From the NCBI GenBank assembly GCA_029219465.1, contig JAQXTL010000005.1:1-64000 (forward strand): a DNA stretch of 64,000 nucleotides, read 5' to 3'. Positions 40,615 to 48,288 of this stretch are shown here, in pieces. Source of the DNA: Methanobacteriaceae archaeon (GTDB lineage: Archaea > Methanobacteriota > Methanobacteria > Methanobacteriales > Methanobacteriaceae). Position 1 is the first letter of the stretch; each line of letters opens with the position of its first letter. A program made the position numbers and the translations under genes. A model generated the notes under the pieces. The model was not told where the DNA came from and did no database searches. It saw nothing but the letters and a program-made list of their open reading frames with translations.

Positions 40615-42018
40615 TTAATATGCATTATGATTTTTCTTTAATACAGTTTTAATCATAATACCTAAGTCTAAACCTAAATGCCAGTTTTCTACATATTCAA
40701 TATCATATTCAATACGTTTTTTAATTGAGGTATCTCCACGACAACCATGAATTTGAGCCCAACCAGTTAATCCAGGTCTAACTTGATGTTTAACCATGTA
40801 TTTAGGAACAGTTTCCTTGAATTGTTTAACAAAATATGGTCTTTCAGGTCTTGGACCTACAACACTCATATCACCTTTCACTACATTGAAAAATTGAGGT
40901 AATTCATCAATACTGGTTTTTCTTATAATTTCCCCAACTTTGGTTTTTCTTGGGTCATCTTTTGTTGTCCATTCAGACTTTTCCTCATCAGGATCTTGGA
41001 CTTTCATACTACGGAATTTATACATCATGAAAGGTTTACCGTTATGACCTATTCTTTCCTGTTTGAATATAATAGGTCCTTTGGAAGACAATTTAATTGC
41101 AATAGCAGTTATTAACATGATTGGTGATGTAATAATAATTGCAATTATTGATATGATGTAGTCTGAGAGATATTTCAAGAATTTATTGAAATCATCATCT
41201 AAAGGAACATATCTGATATTAATAATAGGAATGTCATCAACCATATCTACAGAAGGCTGAGCAGGGAAATATCTGATATAATCAGGAATAATCTCCGCTT
41301 TAATTCCAACTCTCTCACAGCTTTCCACAAGATCATTGATTTTATCATAATATTGTAAAGGAATAGCTAAAACAACTCTGTCAAATCTGTTTTTATCAAG
41401 AATTGCATCAATATCTGAAAAAGATCCAATGATACTGCTTCCTTCAATTTCACGTCCAATATGATCTTGGCGTCCTAAAAAACCACTTACAACAAATCCC
41501 ATATATGGATTTTCACGAATCTTACGTGCAAATTTGAAAGCTAGTTCATTATCTCCAACAATGAGAATATGCTTAATATTTTTGTTGTTAATGCGTATTC
41601 TTCTTAAAAAAGCCCTGATTGTAAATCTTTCAATGATTGCAAAGAAAGTTGAAATCATAGCTAATAAAATCAACATAATCCTTGAAAAGTTAGGTTGATT
41701 TATGATAAACAAAATTGACACTAATACAATAAATGCAACAATGTTTACCTTAATTAATTGGGTAGCTTCTGAAAATATATTTTTATAAGTTCTACGGGGC
41801 TTATAAAGGCCAAACGCGAAATATAAAATTAAATAAACAGGAATTATTGCAAAAGCAAAGAATAAAAAATAACTTACAAATCCTAAATGTCCTCCAAGAG
41901 GTCCAAAAAGAGTAGTTTTGAATCTTAACCATAAAGAACAAAGAAGTGCCAATGCAATAACTAAAACATCAATTAAAACCAATGCTAAATTCAATAATTT
42001 TTGGTTTTCTTTAATCAT
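40615..42018 (-). CDS. polyprenyl-phosphate sugar phosphotransferase (WbaP/PssY-like)
   Basis: Membrane enzyme that starts a lipid-linked glycan by moving a sugar-1-phosphate from a nucleotide sugar to a polyprenyl phosphate. The 467 residues comprise four N-terminal transmembrane helices, a CoA-binding-like Rossmann domain (about 145-250, ILIVGDNELAFK), a further helix, and the C-terminal bacterial sugar transferase domain with ERIGHNGKPFMMYKFRSM and FNVVKGDMSVVGPRPERP. GGGGGT precedes the ATG. Last gene of the minus-strand glycan operon. The sugar it transfers is unknown. Confidence 0.92.
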   Translation of the reverse strand: MIKENQKLLNLALVLIDVLVIALALLCSLWLRFKTTLFGPLGGHLGFVSYFLFFAFAIIPVYLILYFAFGLYKPRRTYKNIFSEATQLIKVNIVAFIVLVSILFIINQPNFSRIMLILLAMISTFFAIIERFTIRAFLRRIRINNKNIKHILIVGDNELAFKFARKIRENPYMGFVVSGFLGRQDHIGREIEGSSIIGSFSDIDAILDKNRFDRVVLAIPLQYYDKINDLVESCERVGIKAEIIPDYIRYFPAQPSVDMVDDIPIINIRYVPLDDDFNKFLKYLSDYIISIIAIIITSPIMLITAIAIKLSSKGPIIFKQERIGHNGKPFMMYKFRSMKVQDPDEEKSEWTTKDDPRKTKVGEIIRKTSIDELPQFFNVVKGDMSVVGPRPERPYFVKQFKETVPKYMVKHQVRPGLTGWAQIHGCRGDTSIKKRIEYDIEYVENWHLGLDLGIMIKTVLKKNHNAY

Positions 42019-42068: not shown

Positions 42069-42926
42069 TTAATCTTTCTTTTTAAATAAATTTAAAAATA
42101 GCTTTAAAATACATAAAACAGCAATCCCAATATAGACTACAATATTGACTATAAATGAAGACTCGTCTGCATGATGTTTTTTATAATAAATGTACATTGC
42201 TCTGTAAAACTCATAAATCAATTTGGATTTTTGTTTTTTACTGCTTGCACCTTTTAAATGGGTAATTTTAGATTCTCCATAGTATATAATCTTCCAGCCT
42301 GCTTTTTTAATCCTATAACAAAGGTCAATATCTTCACCATACATGAAAAATGTTTCATCAAGAAAACCTGACTGGTTTAGTGCCTCACTTCTCATAAACA
42401 TAAATGCTCCGGTAAGACAGTCAATTTCATAGATTTCATCATCAGGAAGATTATCTAAGTTATAGTCATTGTCTTTGCTTTTTGTTGGAATATGAAACAA
42501 TCTGAAAAATGAATTTTTAACGTTTGGAAAACTCCTTTTACATGCTTTGTCAAGTTCACCGTTTTCTAAAACAACTCTGCATCCGCATGCACCGACATCT
42601 TCATGATTTTCCATATAGTTGTAGATGTTATTTAATGTATTTTCCCAAACAATTGTATCTGAATTTAAAAGAAGAACATATTTACCTTTTGCAATCCTTA
42701 AAGCCTGATTATTTCCTGCTGCAAAACCGTTATTTTCTTTTGATGCAATAAATGTTACTTTATCGCCAAAATATTCTTTTAGCTTTGCAAGGCTATCGTC
42801 ACTGGATGCATTGTCAACTACCAAAATCTCATATTCAAATGAACATTCATTTTCAAAAATAGAATTAATAGTATTTTTTGTTAGTTCAAATGTTTGATAG
42901 TTTACAATTACGACTGAAAGGTCCAT
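42069..42926 (-). CDS. family 2 glycosyltransferase (rhamnosyltransferase-like)
   Basis: GT-A fold transferase using a nucleotide sugar. VVIVNYQT at the N-terminus, VDNASSDDS and LLLNSDT (DxD-like) mark the active site, with a C-terminal FFMYGEDIDLCYRIKKAGW segment typical of rhamnosyltransferase-like GT2. A single hydrophobic segment near the C-terminus may anchor it. Two ATGs are close: 42935, whose TGA overlap would couple it to the upstream gene, and 42926, preceded by GATGAT. I prefer 42926 (285 residues) but both are possible. The sugar is inferred only from the nearby dTDP-rhamnose genes. Confidence 0.88.
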   Translation of the reverse strand: MDLSVVIVNYQTFELTKNTINSIFENECSFEYEILVVDNASSDDSLAKLKEYFGDKVTFIASKENNGFAAGNNQALRIAKGKYVLLLNSDTIVWENTLNNIYNYMENHEDVGACGCRVVLENGELDKACKRSFPNVKNSFFRLFHIPTKSKDNDYNLDNLPDDEIYEIDCLTGAFMFMRSEALNQSGFLDETFFMYGEDIDLCYRIKKAGWKIIYYGESKITHLKGASSKKQKSKLIYEFYRAMYIYYKKHHADESSFIVNIVVYIGIAVLCILKLFLNLFKKKD

Positions 42927-42931
42927 ATTAA

Positions 42932-43891
42932 TCATCTTTTTAAAAATTTAATAGTGTTTATTATTAATCTGAATTCAAGTTTAAAATAGTTTTTTGTATT
43001 TTTGGATTCAAATTTAACCTTATCTATCTTACTTCTAGTAGATAATCCTTCACGTAACCCAGCCCTGTAAGTTTTACCAAAGCCTTTTTTGCAAAAGAAT
43101 ATGTATTTAATTAAAAATCCTAAAAACAGGAAAACAAAATTTAGAATTTTTAGTGGAATTGGAATATTTTTATAAACTACCCATACATTATTACGGGCCG
43201 CTAATTTGACCTTGAATTCATTATATCTGCTTCCTGAAGTTGCACTTCCAATATGATAAACAATAGCTTCAGGACATAAAAGGTTTCTATATCCGTTAAT
43301 CCTTGATCTAATAGCTAAATCAACATCTTCCATATATGCAAAGAAGTTATCATCAAATAAACCTATTTCTTCTAAAATTGATTTATTATACATTGCAGCT
43401 CCAGCACAGCTTGAAAAAATATCTCTTACTTCAACATATTCACTGGATTTATGATTTTCCCCTACTTTTTTAGTCCATGCAAGAAGATTGTATTCATCCC
43501 CTACATCATCAATTAAGTCTTTATTGTTATATTGAAGCATTTTAGCCTGAACTGAGAAAATATCATCGCTGGAAGTTATTAAATCGATTAATTTTTTAAT
43601 TGATCCTTTTTTAATTTCTGTATCATTGTTAATTAAAAATATAAGACTGTTTTTAGCTTTTCTTATCCCCTGGTTAACCGCTGGTGAAAAACCTACATTT
43701 TCTTTGTTTTCAATTAAAACCAACGGGAAATTGAACTTATTATTTTTAAGATAGTCAATACTAGAGTCACTAGACCCGTTATCTATAATGATAACTTCAC
43801 CAATATACTCACTATCTTCATTAAGGGACTCTAAGAATGTTTTTAAAAATCTTTCCCCATTATAATTAGGTGTAACAACAGAAACTTTCAT
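42932..43891 (-). CDS. family 2 glycosyltransferase
   Basis: Second GT2 enzyme of the cluster, 319 residues from the ATG at 43891. It starts MKVSVVTPNYNG, with IDNGSSDSS and FLINNDTEI as active-site segments and FFAYMEDVDLAIRSRINGY as the acceptor-side motif. It is similar in plan to the previous gene, and the pair probably arose by duplication. A TTG at 43900 is also in frame but less likely. Its start follows the upstream gene's stop by one base. Confidence 0.88.
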   Translation of the reverse strand: MKVSVVTPNYNGERFLKTFLESLNEDSEYIGEVIIIDNGSSDSSIDYLKNNKFNFPLVLIENKENVGFSPAVNQGIRKAKNSLIFLINNDTEIKKGSIKKLIDLITSSDDIFSVQAKMLQYNNKDLIDDVGDEYNLLAWTKKVGENHKSSEYVEVRDIFSSCAGAAMYNKSILEEIGLFDDNFFAYMEDVDLAIRSRINGYRNLLCPEAIVYHIGSATSGSRYNEFKVKLAARNNVWVVYKNIPIPLKILNFVFLFLGFLIKYIFFCKKGFGKTYRAGLREGLSTRSKIDKVKFESKNTKNYFKLEFRLIINTIKFLKR

Positions 43892-43892
43892 A

Positions 43893-44864
43893 TTAATCAA
43901 TTGAATTTTTAAGTTTTTTCCATATTTTATAATAATTCTTTGGACTTAATAAGAATAACTTTATTTTAAGTTTGAATTTAGAATCTCCTTCAAACTTGGA
44001 TAATTTTGTAAATAAGTCTAATTCTTTCATTTGTGAGAGTACTTCATCAAAATCATAATTGTTTACAAAAAAATAATTCATATTTCCAAAAATAGCTTTT
44101 GGTATTCTTGATGTTATTATTAAATCAGCTAATTCATCTTTTCCATGCTTTTTGTAGTATTTTGCTAAATTTTCAAATACATCTACAATATAAAAACGTC
44201 TGAAATTAGATGTTCTAATAGCTGAATTCTCATGCTGGATATAACAGTATGTTGCTTCATTACTAATGGAAATAACATCTCCAAAAACTAATGCTTTAAG
44301 TGCAAACTCTGTATCTTCACCATATACAACATCTGGTGTGAATCTGATATTATTCTCATCAATAATACTTTTTTTATACATTAACTGACAAAATGAGAAA
44401 GGAATTTCCATATTCAATTCCATTTTTATAAAATCTTCACAAGAAATTGATTGAGTTTCAAACTTGTAAGGATTAGAAATATTATTTTTTTCTTTTTTAA
44501 CTAACTGTACTAAACTGAAATCAGTTTTTCCATTGTATAATTCTGATAAATGATTTTTTTGTATATAATCATCTGCGTCAACAAAAACAATATATTCACC
44601 ACGTGCAAGTTCAATTCCACGATTTCTTGCACAGCTTACACCATAATTATCCTGGTGAACTATATTGTGACTTATATTTGATTTGGATAATTTTTCTTCA
44701 ATTATTTCAAGACTGTTGTCGCTAGAGCCATCATCTATGACAATAACTTCAAAATCCTCAAAATCCTGATTAATTATTGAATCAAGTGTGGTACCTATAT
44801 ACTCACAACTATTATAAACTGGAACGATTACACTAACCTTAATATTATCCATTTTATCAGCCAT
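43893..44864 (-). CDS. family 2 glycosyltransferase (capsule type)
   Basis: Third GT2 enzyme, 323 residues, of the capsular polysaccharide type. Seen are VSVIVPVYNSCEYI, VIDDGSSDNS, and the DxD segment FVDADDYIQ. The fold ends near residue 215, and the C-terminal 100 residues resemble the helical extension of capsule glycosyltransferases. ATGs at 44864 and 44852 are both possible; the first overlaps the previous gene's stop codon by one base (TAATG) and would couple translation. Confidence 0.88.
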   Translation of the reverse strand: MADKMDNIKVSVIVPVYNSCEYIGTTLDSIINQDFEDFEVIVIDDGSSDNSLEIIEEKLSKSNISHNIVHQDNYGVSCARNRGIELARGEYIVFVDADDYIQKNHLSELYNGKTDFSLVQLVKKEKNNISNPYKFETQSISCEDFIKMELNMEIPFSFCQLMYKKSIIDENNIRFTPDVVYGEDTEFALKALVFGDVISISNEATYCYIQHENSAIRTSNFRRFYIVDVFENLAKYYKKHGKDELADLIITSRIPKAIFGNMNYFFVNNYDFDEVLSQMKELDLFTKLSKFEGDSKFKLKIKLFLLSPKNYYKIWKKLKNSID

Positions 44865-45943
44865 TATTTTAATAGAAAGTCGACAACTCTTTTAGATGAA
44901 TCACCATCAATTACATCAAATTGTGTCTTAGTAAATTCAGATATTTTGCTTTTATCAAATTCCTCATTTTTAATTACATTTATTAATTCATCAGAGGTAT
45001 AAACAATTGGTCCTGGAACGGTTTTTTCAAAATCATAGTAAAATCCACGTTCATTTGACAAATAGCTATCCAAATCATATGTGAAAAATATAGCAGGCTT
45101 ATCCAAAGCCACAAATTCTATCATAATAGACGAATAATCAGTAATTAAGATATCACTTATAAGCATTAATTCCTGTTCACATTCATAATTACTTGCATCA
45201 ATATAGCTTCCTTTGGATATAATATCCTCTTTGTAGAAGTCTTTGATTTTAGGGTGAAGTCTTAAGGATAAAACATACTCATCACCTAAAACACGGTTAA
45301 ATTCATCTAAATTCAAGTAATTAAATACATTATTGTATTTTTCATCATCTCTAAATGTTGGAGCATACAATACAATTTTCTTATCTGTTGGGAAATTGTT
45401 GTCTTTTAAAAATTTTGATTTTAATTTGTCTACATCATGATTTTCAAAATAGTAGTCCATACGAGGAAGGCCTAATGATTTAATTTTACTCTCAGATATC
45501 TGGAAAGCTTCCTTATAATATTTTTTAACATTATTTGAAGTGACAATTAAATAATCTGTTTTATTAGAGATTTTTTCAAGAATTTCTCTGCTTTGAATAT
45601 CTACAGATCCTCCGAACTTCTTAGAAGCACCTGGAGCATGCCATAACTGAACAACAACAGTTTCAGGATTGAAATTCATAAAAGCAAGCGGGAAAAAATT
45701 GTCATTTAGGAATATGAATTTTGAACTAGAGAGCTTTTTGAAACTACTAATAGAAAATTTATCCTTGTAAAAATAGTGAAAATCAAAGTTTCCACGATTC
45801 TCAAATTCCTTTTTAATATAATCTAAGTTACCTTTAAAGGATTCTTTTGAATCAATGATAAATGAAACTTTGTTATTATTAATTTTGGTGCTTTTAAATA
45901 AATTAAATAAAGCACCATAAAATTTATGGGCTATATAACTCAT
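44864..45943 (-). CDS. CDP-glycerol glycerophosphotransferase family protein (TagB/TagF-like)
   Basis: Predicted to add or polymerise glycerol phosphate (or another CDP-alditol) on a lipid-linked glycan, as in teichoic acid synthesis. The 359 residues correspond to the TagB/TagF catalytic domain without the N-terminal GT of larger fusions. Family motifs are QLWHAPGASKKFGG (about 98-111), LYAPTFRDD, LRLHPK, and DILITDYSSIMIEF, with His and Asp as catalytic candidates. The family is mainly bacterial but known in Methanobrevibacter. Between GT2 genes and the paired membrane proteins. Confidence 0.9.
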   Translation of the reverse strand: MSYIAHKFYGALFNLFKSTKINNNKVSFIIDSKESFKGNLDYIKKEFENRGNFDFHYFYKDKFSISSFKKLSSSKFIFLNDNFFPLAFMNFNPETVVVQLWHAPGASKKFGGSVDIQSREILEKISNKTDYLIVTSNNVKKYYKEAFQISESKIKSLGLPRMDYYFENHDVDKLKSKFLKDNNFPTDKKIVLYAPTFRDDEKYNNVFNYLNLDEFNRVLGDEYVLSLRLHPKIKDFYKEDIISKGSYIDASNYECEQELMLISDILITDYSSIMIEFVALDKPAIFFTYDLDSYLSNERGFYYDFEKTVPGPIVYTSDELINVIKNEEFDKSKISEFTKTQFDVIDGDSSKRVVDFLLK

Positions 45944-45953
45944 ATTAAATTAC

Positions 45954-46217
45954 TTAAAATAATACTCCAGACTCAATCATAGATTTAATACCTAAAATGA
46001 AAATTGCAAGTCCACCAGCGAAATTAATGTAACGAGCATATTTCATTGCAATTTTGGTACCAAATGTTCCAATTGCAAGCCAAGCACAAACAGCAATTAA
46101 ACTTAAAATACCAAGAACAAAAGGATTAACGTGAGCAACAACACCTTGAGCAGCTAAAATTAAATTCTCGATATTTCCAAAAATTAATAATCCTGCGAAT
46201 TGTTTTAATTCATCCAT
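45954..46217 (-). CDS. three-helix membrane protein A, tandem paralogue
   Basis: I do not recognise a family with certainty. The 87 residues contain three hydrophobic helices: about 7-28 (with GNIENL), 32-52, and 65-82. It is about half identical to the neighbouring protein B and keeps IFGNIENL, QGVVA, VNP, IGTF and GGLAIFILG. The loop between helices 2 and 3 has Lys54, Lys59 and Arg62, so by the positive-inside rule N-in/C-out is predicted. LysE/MntP/CadD-type transporters are built from two such three-helix units fused, which is the closest structural parallel. Upstream of the TagF-like gene. Confidence 0.78.
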   Translation of the reverse strand: MDELKQFAGLLIFGNIENLILAAQGVVAHVNPFVLGILSLIAVCAWLAIGTFGTKIAMKYARYINFAGGLAIFILGIKSMIESGVLF

Positions 46218-46218
46218 T

Positions 46219-46485
46219 CTAATCGCCTCTTATTGACTCAATCATTGCTTGAGCACCTAAAATGAAAATTGCTAAACCACCAATAAAATCAATTAACGGT
46301 GCATATTGAATAAACATACCAGTTGCAAAAGTACCAATGAATAACCAGATACATACACAAACTATACTTGCAACACCTAATTTAACAGGATTTACTCCTG
46401 CAACAACTCCCTGAGAGGATAATACTAAATTCTCAATGTTTCCAAAAATAATTAAACCTAAAAAGGGCAAATACTGCTCTAACAT
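46219..46485 (-). CDS. three-helix membrane protein B, tandem paralogue
   Basis: Paralogue of protein A, one base away on the same strand. Two in-frame ATGs exist: 46494, only one base after GGAGGA, and 46485, ten bases after it; I prefer 46485 (88 residues). Three helices keep the same motifs as A. The loop between helices 2 and 3 has no positive charge; the first loop (Lys) and the C-terminus (Arg) do, so the predicted orientation is opposite to A. It is the first gene of the operon that runs to the sugar phosphotransferase. Function unknown. Confidence 0.78.
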   Translation of the reverse strand: MLEQYLPFLGLIIFGNIENLVLSSQGVVAGVNPVKLGVASIVCVCIWLFIGTFATGMFIQYAPLIDFIGGLAIFILGAQAMIESIRGD

Positions 46486-46714: not shown

Positions 46715-47722
46715 TTATCTGCATGAATACATTTTTTCATAATACTCTTTATATTCGCCACTTTTGATTTGATTGGTCCAGTTTTGATTATCCAAGTACC
46801 ATTGGATTGTCTGTTCAATACCAACGTCAAATGAATACTTTGGGCTCCAACCAAGGTCATTTTGGATTTTATTTGAGTCAATTGCATAGCGTCTGTCATG
46901 ACCCAATCTATCGGTTACAAATTCAATTAATGACTCATCTTTGTCTAATTGGCTTAAAATTAATTTAACAATTTCAATATTTTGTTTTTCGTTATTTCCA
47001 CCAATATTATAAACTTCACCAAGCTTACCATCGTGAAGAACCAAATCAATAGCTTGACAGTGGTCATAGACATGTAACCAATCTCTTACATTCTTACCAT
47101 CGCCATATACTGGAAGTTTTTTATCCTCCAATGCGTTTGAAATCATTAATGGAATAAGTTTTTCCGGAAACTGGAAAGGACCATAGTTATTAGAACAGCG
47201 AGTAATATTTATCGGTAAACCAAATGTTTCACCATAAGATCGGGTAATTAAATCTCCACTTGCTTTTGAAGCAGAATATGGACTGTTTGGCTGTAAAGGA
47301 GTAGTTTCTTTGAAGTATCCTGTTTTTCCTAAGCTTCCATAAACTTCATCTGTTGAAATCTGAATATATTTTTCAACACCATACTGTTTAGCTGCATTTA
47401 ACAAAACCTGTGTTCCCAAAACATTTGATTTAATAAAGATTTCAGGATCACTAATACTTCTGTCAACATGACTCTCAGCAGCAAAATTAATAACATAATC
47501 TGATTTTTCAACCAGTTCATCAACTACTGCTTTATCACAAATGTTTCCTTTAACAAAAGAATAGTTATCCTTATTTTCTATATCCTTTAAGTTTTCAAGG
47601 TTTCCACAGTATGTTAAATCATCTAAGTTAATAATTTCATATTCAGAGTATTTATTGACCATATATCTGATAAAATTACTTCCAATAAACCCTGCTCCAC
47701 CGGTAACAAGTATTCTTGACAT
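46715..47722 (-). CDS. rfbB: dTDP-glucose 4,6-dehydratase RfbB
   Basis: Second step of dTDP-L-rhamnose synthesis. It is a short-chain dehydrogenase-type enzyme with the NAD motif TGGAGFIGSNF and the catalytic YSASK tyrosine-lysine pair. STDEVYGSL supplies the aspartate-glutamate dehydration residues. A GTG at 47731 lies in frame but belongs to the GTGAT ribosome binding site; the ATG at 47722 starts MSRILVTGG and gives 335 residues. Last gene of rfbD-A-C-B. Confidence 0.95.
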   Translation of the reverse strand: MSRILVTGGAGFIGSNFIRYMVNKYSEYEIINLDDLTYCGNLENLKDIENKDNYSFVKGNICDKAVVDELVEKSDYVINFAAESHVDRSISDPEIFIKSNVLGTQVLLNAAKQYGVEKYIQISTDEVYGSLGKTGYFKETTPLQPNSPYSASKASGDLITRSYGETFGLPINITRCSNNYGPFQFPEKLIPLMISNALEDKKLPVYGDGKNVRDWLHVYDHCQAIDLVLHDGKLGEVYNIGGNNEKQNIEIVKLILSQLDKDESLIEFVTDRLGHDRRYAIDSNKIQNDLGWSPKYSFDVGIEQTIQWYLDNQNWTNQIKSGEYKEYYEKMYSCR

Positions 47723-47727
47723 GAAAA

Positions 47728-48288
47728 TCACTCATATTTAATTTGAGATTGCTTAAAGCTTAGCCATTGTTTATCCTTTTCGGATAAAATTACTTCATCA
47801 ATTCCATCTAATGGCCAGTCAATAGCAATATCTTCATCATCCCATTTAATTCCACTTTCATCTTCGCCGTGATAGAATTCTGTACATTTATACACGAATT
47901 CAGCTTCATCAGACAATACTAAAAATCCATGAGCAAATTTAGGAGGAATATACAATTGTCTTTTATTTTCATCAGACAAGATAGCTCCAAACCATTTACC
48001 ATAAGTTGGAGAGTCAGCTCTTAAATCAACACCAACATCAAAGACTTCTCCCTTAATAACACGGACTAATTTGCCCTGAGGGTATTTTACTTGCAAGTGT
48101 AAGCCTCTTAATACTCCTTTAGTTGATTTTGATTGATTATCCTGAACAAATGTCAAGTCATAACCAGCATCCTTAAATTCCTGTTCATGGTATGTTTCCA
48201 TAAAATATCCTCTGTCATCTTCAAAAACAGTAGGTTCTACCATAAACATTCCATCAATGTCTGTTTTTATAAAATTAAATTTTCCCAT
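47728..48288 (-). CDS. rfbC: dTDP-4-dehydrorhamnose 3,5-epimerase RfbC
   Basis: Third step of the dTDP-rhamnose pathway. The cupin of 186 residues shows GVLRGLHLQ with the catalytic histidine, KLVRVIKGEVFDV, and FAHGFLVLS. The ATG at 48288 follows a GTGAG site; a GTG nine bases before it is part of that site. It lies five bases upstream of rfbB and six bases after rfbA, so all are co-transcribed. Confidence 0.95.
   Translation of the reverse strand: MGKFNFIKTDIDGMFMVEPTVFEDDRGYFMETYHEQEFKDAGYDLTFVQDNQSKSTKGVLRGLHLQVKYPQGKLVRVIKGEVFDVGVDLRADSPTYGKWFGAILSDENKRQLYIPPKFAHGFLVLSDEAEFVYKCTEFYHGEDESGIKWDDEDIAIDWPLDGIDEVILSEKDKQWLSFKQSQIKYE

Follow-up and report, generated by a model that had tools for sequence, protein, structure and literature searches.

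A paired three-helix membrane protein family of Methanobacteriaceae as a probable split, antiparallel half-transporter of the LysE superfamily

Two adjacent genes of a Methanobacteriaceae archaeon encode very small membrane proteins that resemble each other, which raises the question of whether their products work as one unit and, if so, what that unit does. On the current view, inverted-repeat transporters began as small dual-topology proteins that were duplicated, became fixed in opposite orientations and were fused. A sequence-only reading of the locus had proposed that the two genes (B upstream and A downstream; Table 1) form an unfused, ancestor-like pair of half-transporters related to LysE and MntP. 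Here, the locus was followed up within the window (the whole 64,000-nucleotide stretch of DNA that was analyzed) and across related genomes. The best overall explanation is probably a split half-transporter pair of the LysE superfamily, arranged antiparallel in the membrane and perhaps moving a divalent cation.

Table 1. Positions in the window of the B-A pair, its conserved sites and the neighboring genes.
Feature	Position	Strand	Assignment	Basis
Gene B (upstream)	46219..46485	minus	88 aa + stop; predicted 3-TM half-transporter, N-out/C-in	ORF, relatives, charge bias, helices of the L040 model
Gene A (downstream)	45954..46217	minus	87 aa + stop; predicted 3-TM half-transporter, N-in/C-out	ORF, identity to B, charge bias, helices of the L040 model
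B residues 15-19, GNIEN	46429..46443	minus	Predicted TM1 break; Glu aligns with the conserved Asp of MntP TM1/TM4	Conservation, L040 model, alignment with MntP repeat 2
A residues 14-18, GNIEN	46164..46178	minus	Predicted pseudo-symmetric counterpart of the GNIEN site of B	Conservation, L040 model
B TM3 signature D-x-x-G-G-x6-G	46255..46290	minus	Common to MntP TM6	Motif scan; Tsu and Saier 2015 (PMC4608589)
rfbB-type dTDP-glucose dehydratase gene	46715..47731	minus	Upstream of B, 230-nt gap between	
CDP-glycerol:poly(glycerophosphate) glycerophosphotransferase family gene	44864..45943	minus	10 nt after A	PF04464, Pfam E 5.8e-74
Three family-2 glycosyltransferase genes	42069..44864	minus	Same operon	PF00535
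Polyprenyl-phosphate sugar transferase gene	40615..42018	minus	End of glycan operon	PF02397

Both reading frames are real: the ATG of B is preceded by GGAGG at a spacing of 10 nt, and a single nucleotide lies between the stop codon of B and the start codon of A. The two products had been described as paralogues that are roughly half identical; the identity is slightly higher (49/82, 60%; E 6e-34), and the three motifs said to be common to them, IFGNIENL, QGVVA and GGLAIFILG, are indeed present in both. The charged residues were likewise found as described, with two Lys and one Arg in the loop between helices 2 and 3 of A, and no positive residue there in B, which carries Lys in loop 1 and Arg at the C-terminus. 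Pfam and NCBIfam scans of the two proteins of the window gave nothing meaningful: PF02659 had no match at E values up to 10, PF01169 and the families of the LysE clan had none either, and a sequence profile search of the PDB returned no match. When 45 relatives were scanned, 29 weak families appeared, including TerC (0.018) and LysE (0.024), matches that would be too weak to suffice by themselves.

The distribution of the family is narrow and its pairing is nearly obligate. A single-sequence search of 120 relatives was positive in 68 genomes, with two or four hits in nearly every one, and a profile built from 45 members gave hits in 104 of the 152 phylum genomes, spread over 4 of 20 genera within one family. 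From a scan of 84,980 species genomes, 80 loci were kept; all belonged to Methanobrevibacter, Methanosphaera or other Methanobacteriaceae, and many genomes have a second, divergent B-A pair (pair 2). In the first locus set, every group of family genes (161/161) had exactly two members. After the addition of 20 loci, 127 distinct B-A pairs were available, a recurrence beyond chance, in which the gene order is always B-A, with two exceptions to pairing: a B-A-A' triple (L164, minus strand, G157:C10:196708-197735), in which A' follows the pair by about 190 nt, and a lone A of the second pair with B missing (L165:6478-6724, plus strand, G056:C54). The latter has KYADYIEI shortened to KYAEI, a three-residue deletion before GG, and is probably a decaying copy, judging from its sequence. 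The co-occurrence of both genes, which had been put forward as a check, thus holds with A seen once without B. In a tree of 84 rows, all B and all A sequences were split by a single branch (SH-aLRT 91), indicating that the duplication is older than the spread of the family and that there has been no detectable mixing since.

The charge distribution predicts opposite orientations for the two halves. Over the 127 distinct pairs, the mean number of Lys and Arg is 0.02, 1.30, 0.08 and 2.13 in the N-terminus, loop 1, loop 2 and C-terminus of B, respectively, and 0.95, 0.02, 2.51 and 0.17 in the same regions of A. The bias, defined as (L1+C)-(N+L2) from these counts, is positive in 127/127 B and negative in 126/127 A, the odd one out (L047) having a run of unknown bases; as the pairs come from related species, they are not 127 independent events and the count is not a probability. 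By the positive-inside rule, loop 1 and the C-terminus of B and the N-terminus and loop 2 of A should be inside, which agrees with the opposite orientations predicted earlier from the window. The residues that carry the bias vary by clade (e.g., ...SIRGD in pair 1, the pair of glycan clusters, vs ...AVKNIRSK in pair 2), implying that the bias itself has been kept while the letters change.

One natural fusion bears directly on how the halves are arranged. In a 192-kb contig of a rabbit-gut MAG (G030; L040:6872-7459, minus strand, G030:C1), the only genome in which a fusion was found, B and A form one ORF with a short, charged, Glu-rich linker (RKDVKEEEEIIDEYGENKNSSGGEF). As two three-helix units are joined there by a short polar linker, the halves must be antiparallel. 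An AlphaFold2 prediction, made with an alignment of the L040 fusion and 24 further pairs translated across their stop codons, had a pLDDT of 85.9 and a pTM of 0.80, and consists of two repeats (separate genes in the window), each comprising a broken helix and two long helices (9-17/21-31, 36-60, 62-93; 113-121/125-135, 140-164, 166-195). In both halves, helix 1 is predicted to break exactly at the GNI of GNIEN (G122-N123-I124 in the second half). Because the fusion and the read-through linkers favor an antiparallel answer, this model is support for such a fold and not proof of it. Together, the charge bias, the near-obligate pairing and the fusion make it very probable that B and A form an antiparallel heterodimer in the membrane.

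In one clade (L041, L042, L047, and also L040), B ends with a long, mostly acidic tail (RKDVETEEEIIEEYVEERNR), which resembles the acidic linker that fused MntP and TMEM165 proteins have in the cytosol. The L040 fusion arose within this clade.

Kinship was examined with MntP, LysE, MarC, TerC, Cad and SMR members from archaeal genomes, together with 14 unrelated membrane families taken from the flanks. In hhalign comparisons with the B/A profile, MntP scored 25.0, LysE 24.6 and MarC 19.9, whereas 15 membrane controls did not exceed 16.8, SMR being the top control. Shuffling columns within each helix or loop gave z values of 4.4 for MntP, 5.5 for LysE and 2.5 for MarC, against -0.6 to 1.0 for seven controls. 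As accepted clan members compared in the same setting scored 24.3 (MntP-LysE) and 19.5 (MntP-TerC), the score between B/A and MntP is as strong as that between accepted members. The hhalign probabilities for individual pairs of profiles are modest (15-63%), and the local alignments extend over 34-43 columns, mainly TM2-TM3. TerC (4 sequences) and Cad (one usable sequence) were without profile signal; Cad/CadD (PF03596), the TM1 of which reads TNIDDL, scored 11.2, inside the shuffle range. A forced full-length alignment with MntP repeat 2 ran over 87 columns with one gap and placed NIEN on SIDA.

Other features point the same way. The TM6 motif of the MntP type combines an acidic residue with a glycine pair and one more glycine further on (positions 4, 7-8 and 15; Tsu and Saier 2015, PMC4608589), and the corresponding TM3 signature, [DE]xxGGx6G, occurs in 77/127 B, 61/127 A and 19/30 MntP and in 0 of 19 other families. 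The Lys plus Arg counts along the loops of MntP (0/2.8/0.2/2.5/0.3/3.0/0.04) mirror B followed by A. An AlphaFold2 model of MntP from the same archaeal family (helices 3-27, 33-60, 62-93; 104-114/116-127, 133-161, 164-186) has helices of nearly the same lengths as the L040 model and the same break in TM4, with TM1 (repeat 1) unbroken. The fully conserved Asp of MntP in TM1 and TM4 is not kept; Glu occupies the aligned place in both halves of all 127 pairs, so that acidity is kept. We consider it likely, with good confidence, that the pair belongs to the LysE superfamily with MntP and LysE as its nearest families, in view of the profile comparison with its controls, the TM3 signature, the loop charges and the predicted helix layout, and the link proposed earlier was borne out to this extent.

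Foldseek comparisons of the L040 model gave nothing significant against the PDB (best E 1.5) or against viral models, and as the true MntP model fails equally in the PDB (best E 0.73), this test lacks power. Compared with the solved CcdA structure (5vkv) of the superfamily, the BA model gave TMq 0.39 (E 3.3) and the true MntP model TMq 0.43 (E 5.5), so that this comparison does not discriminate either. The fold of the model can be reconciled with that of MntP, and the unrelated fold that would have spoken against a six-helix inverted repeat was not what emerged.

Several more specific assignments were rejected. Membership of the MntP family proper (PF02659) was set aside since the pair lies below the Pfam threshold and lacks the fully conserved Asp. 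UPF0016/GDT1 (PF01169) was excluded because its E-x-G-D-[KR]-[ST] motif is absent, the TM1 motif being GNIENL throughout, and because A and B have no PF01169 match; a PF01169 search of 60 genomes of the phylum also found no member. SMR (PF00893) was dismissed, as three helices are predicted instead of four and the profile score is not above shuffles (z 1.0). CcdA-like electron transfer was dropped in the absence of conserved cysteines.

The proposal that the pair is ancestor-like is doubtful. B and A are 60% identical and each is about 17-25% identical to the MntP repeats, and a joint tree with these repeats placed B and A together with a support of 100; the alternative grouping of A with repeat 2 and B with repeat 1 had a p-AU of 0.459 and was not rejected. 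A prefers MntP repeat 2 (z 5.5 vs -0.8 for repeat 1) and B has a smaller preference for repeat 1; given the joint tree and the p-AU value, these preferences may stem from orientation signals held in common and not from descent. The simplest reading of the identities and the tree is a separate, younger duplication; the B/A event was thus probably independent of that of MntP, a replay of its route and not its ancestor or survivor.

Under the preferred reading, B and A would be two halves of one membrane transporter with three transmembrane helices each, the first helix of each half being broken mid-membrane at the invariant GNIEN. B would insert N-out/C-in and A N-in/C-out, giving a 3+3 antiparallel heterodimer with two-fold pseudo-symmetry in the membrane plane. 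In the middle of the membrane, NIEN is the invariant polar stretch (127/127 B and 127/127 A), and the QG after it is nearly always kept in both halves. Both GNIEN motifs could line one central site, each half contributing a Glu and a pair of Asn as well as a conserved Gln located farther down the same helix, and a divalent metal cation might be exported through it by alternating access. The cargo is suggested by the conserved Asp of MntP and CadD at the same place, an analogy by which we hold a divalent cation just short of an even chance; the direction of transport is probably outward. More weakly, we infer that the copy in glycan clusters may provide the metal needed for surface-glycan assembly or keep it in balance; TMEM165 and TerC proteins offer parallels, in which metal is supplied to glycan assembly or to exported enzymes. 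The genome of the window also has an ordinary fused MntP (G000:C15:48615-49055), so manganese export need not fall to the B-A pair.

The gene neighborhood is constant for one pair and variable for the other. As had been noted, the pair of the window stands first in a surface-glycan operon, between the rfbB-type and PF04464 genes at the spacings given in Table 1. The PF04464 gene is the next neighbor in 44 loci and the rfbB-type gene the upstream neighbor in 43, and pair 1 is always inside surface-glycan clusters, in two quite different gene arrangements. Pair 2 lies outside glycan clusters without conserved neighbors, and no metal-gene context was seen there. An Rfam search gave no riboswitch or other match. 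In Methanosphaera-type loci (L167, L171, L131, L037, L175 and L183), a winged-helix-like protein of about 91 aa is encoded 400-860 nt upstream on the same strand, and two conserved genes are divergent to it.

It is conceivable, on the strength of this context, that the antiparallel pair is a small flippase for a lipid-linked glycan or glycan precursor, like ArnE/ArnF of the SMR type or the GAP lipid exporters. The recurrence of pair 1 in differently arranged glycan clusters is consistent with this, as are the lack of any Wzx or ABC exporter seen among the genes of the window's cluster and the inclusion of peptidoglycolipid (GAP) exporters in the LysE superfamily (PMC4608589). However, three Wzx-type genes are found elsewhere in the genome, outside the window's cluster, pair 2 has no such neighbors, and the most conserved residues form two symmetric mid-membrane acidic/amide sites, a better fit for a small ion, which makes a flippase unlikely. 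The fuller version, in which the pair would represent a novel class of minimal heterodimeric flippase that handles precursors of archaeal surface glycans and that evolved within the LysE superfamily through a separate round of duplication, fixed opposite topologies and, in one lineage, fusion, is improbable. Since the genome has both Wzx-type genes and a normal MntP, neither a flippase nor a cation role is required by the absence of an alternative.

A second alternative accepts the antiparallel pair and regards its likeness to MntP and LysE as convergence of short glycine-rich helices in an unrelated small dual-topology family. The shortness of the local profile alignments and the lack of Foldseek support agree with this, whereas shuffles that keep the composition of each helix fall short of the observed scores, and MntP shows the same TM3 signature, pattern of loop charges and layout of helices, the signature being absent from controls; we therefore regard convergence as improbable, too. 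Slightly less probable again is a role other than transport, with the two proteins serving surface-glycan enzymes as a membrane scaffold or a metal chaperone, comparable to the TerC-like metalation of exo-enzymes. According to two reports (PMC10550928, PMC12096827), TerC proteins of the LysE superfamily act in metalation of exported enzymes, and pair 1 is apparently co-transcribed with glycan enzymes; nevertheless, B and A have no soluble domain, the four TerC sequences gave no profile signal, and no fixed set of enzyme genes accompanies pair 2. That a small membrane protein was simply duplicated in tandem not long ago, without any pairing function, tandem paralogues being common in general, can hardly be credited in the face of one ancient B/A split, near-perfect co-retention, an opposite charge bias kept everywhere and a fusion.

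A split half-transporter pair of the LysE superfamily is thus the reading that we carry forward. With opposite pairs fixed over at least four genera and one fusion, the family shows how such transporters evolve, and its 127 pairs allow charge evolution, co-evolution and fusion to be tracked. It also provides a testable structure for two genes that are unannotated, near-universal in gut methanogens and linked to their surface glycans. A literature search, with most subscription journals outside its reach, returned no report of the B-A pair.

Among known systems, SMR pairs (EmrE-like, ArnE/ArnF) and DUF606 pairs are likewise small paralogues of opposite orientation, ArnEF being located in a sugar-lipid operon; unlike B and A, they have four or five helices per half. 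The LysE translocator (PF01810) is a profile partner on par with MntP, the match falling on TM2-TM3 of repeat 1, but it is a fused amino-acid transporter of about 200 aa without GNIEN and [DE]xxGGx6G. The half-gene pairs of cyanobacterial UPF0016/GDT1 are also adjacent three-helix half-transporter genes of opposite orientation, and their halves are interdependent, both being needed in yeast complementation (PMC4067407); B and A differ in lacking E-x-G-D-[KR]-[ST] and in the organisms that carry them. As of that 2014 study, paired and fused intermediates side by side were known only in DUF606 and UPF0016, and UPF0016 pairs only in cyanobacteria (PMC4067407). With MntP (PF02659, TC 2.A.107), the pair has in common 3+3 helices, an acidic residue at the same place in TM1/TM4, [DE]xxGGx6G in TM6, the loop-charge pattern, an acidic cytosolic linker, predicted helix lengths and the TM4 break. 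It differs from MntP in being two genes, in having Glu instead of Asp and GNIEN in both halves, in the lack of a Pfam-level match, and in halves that are 60% alike, whereas the repeats of MntP are about 25% alike. Half-transporter pairs as such are established by UPF0016, SMR and DUF606, and what is new is a further such family in the same superfamily, archaeal and near MntP, with one fusion and a steady link to surface-glycan genes.
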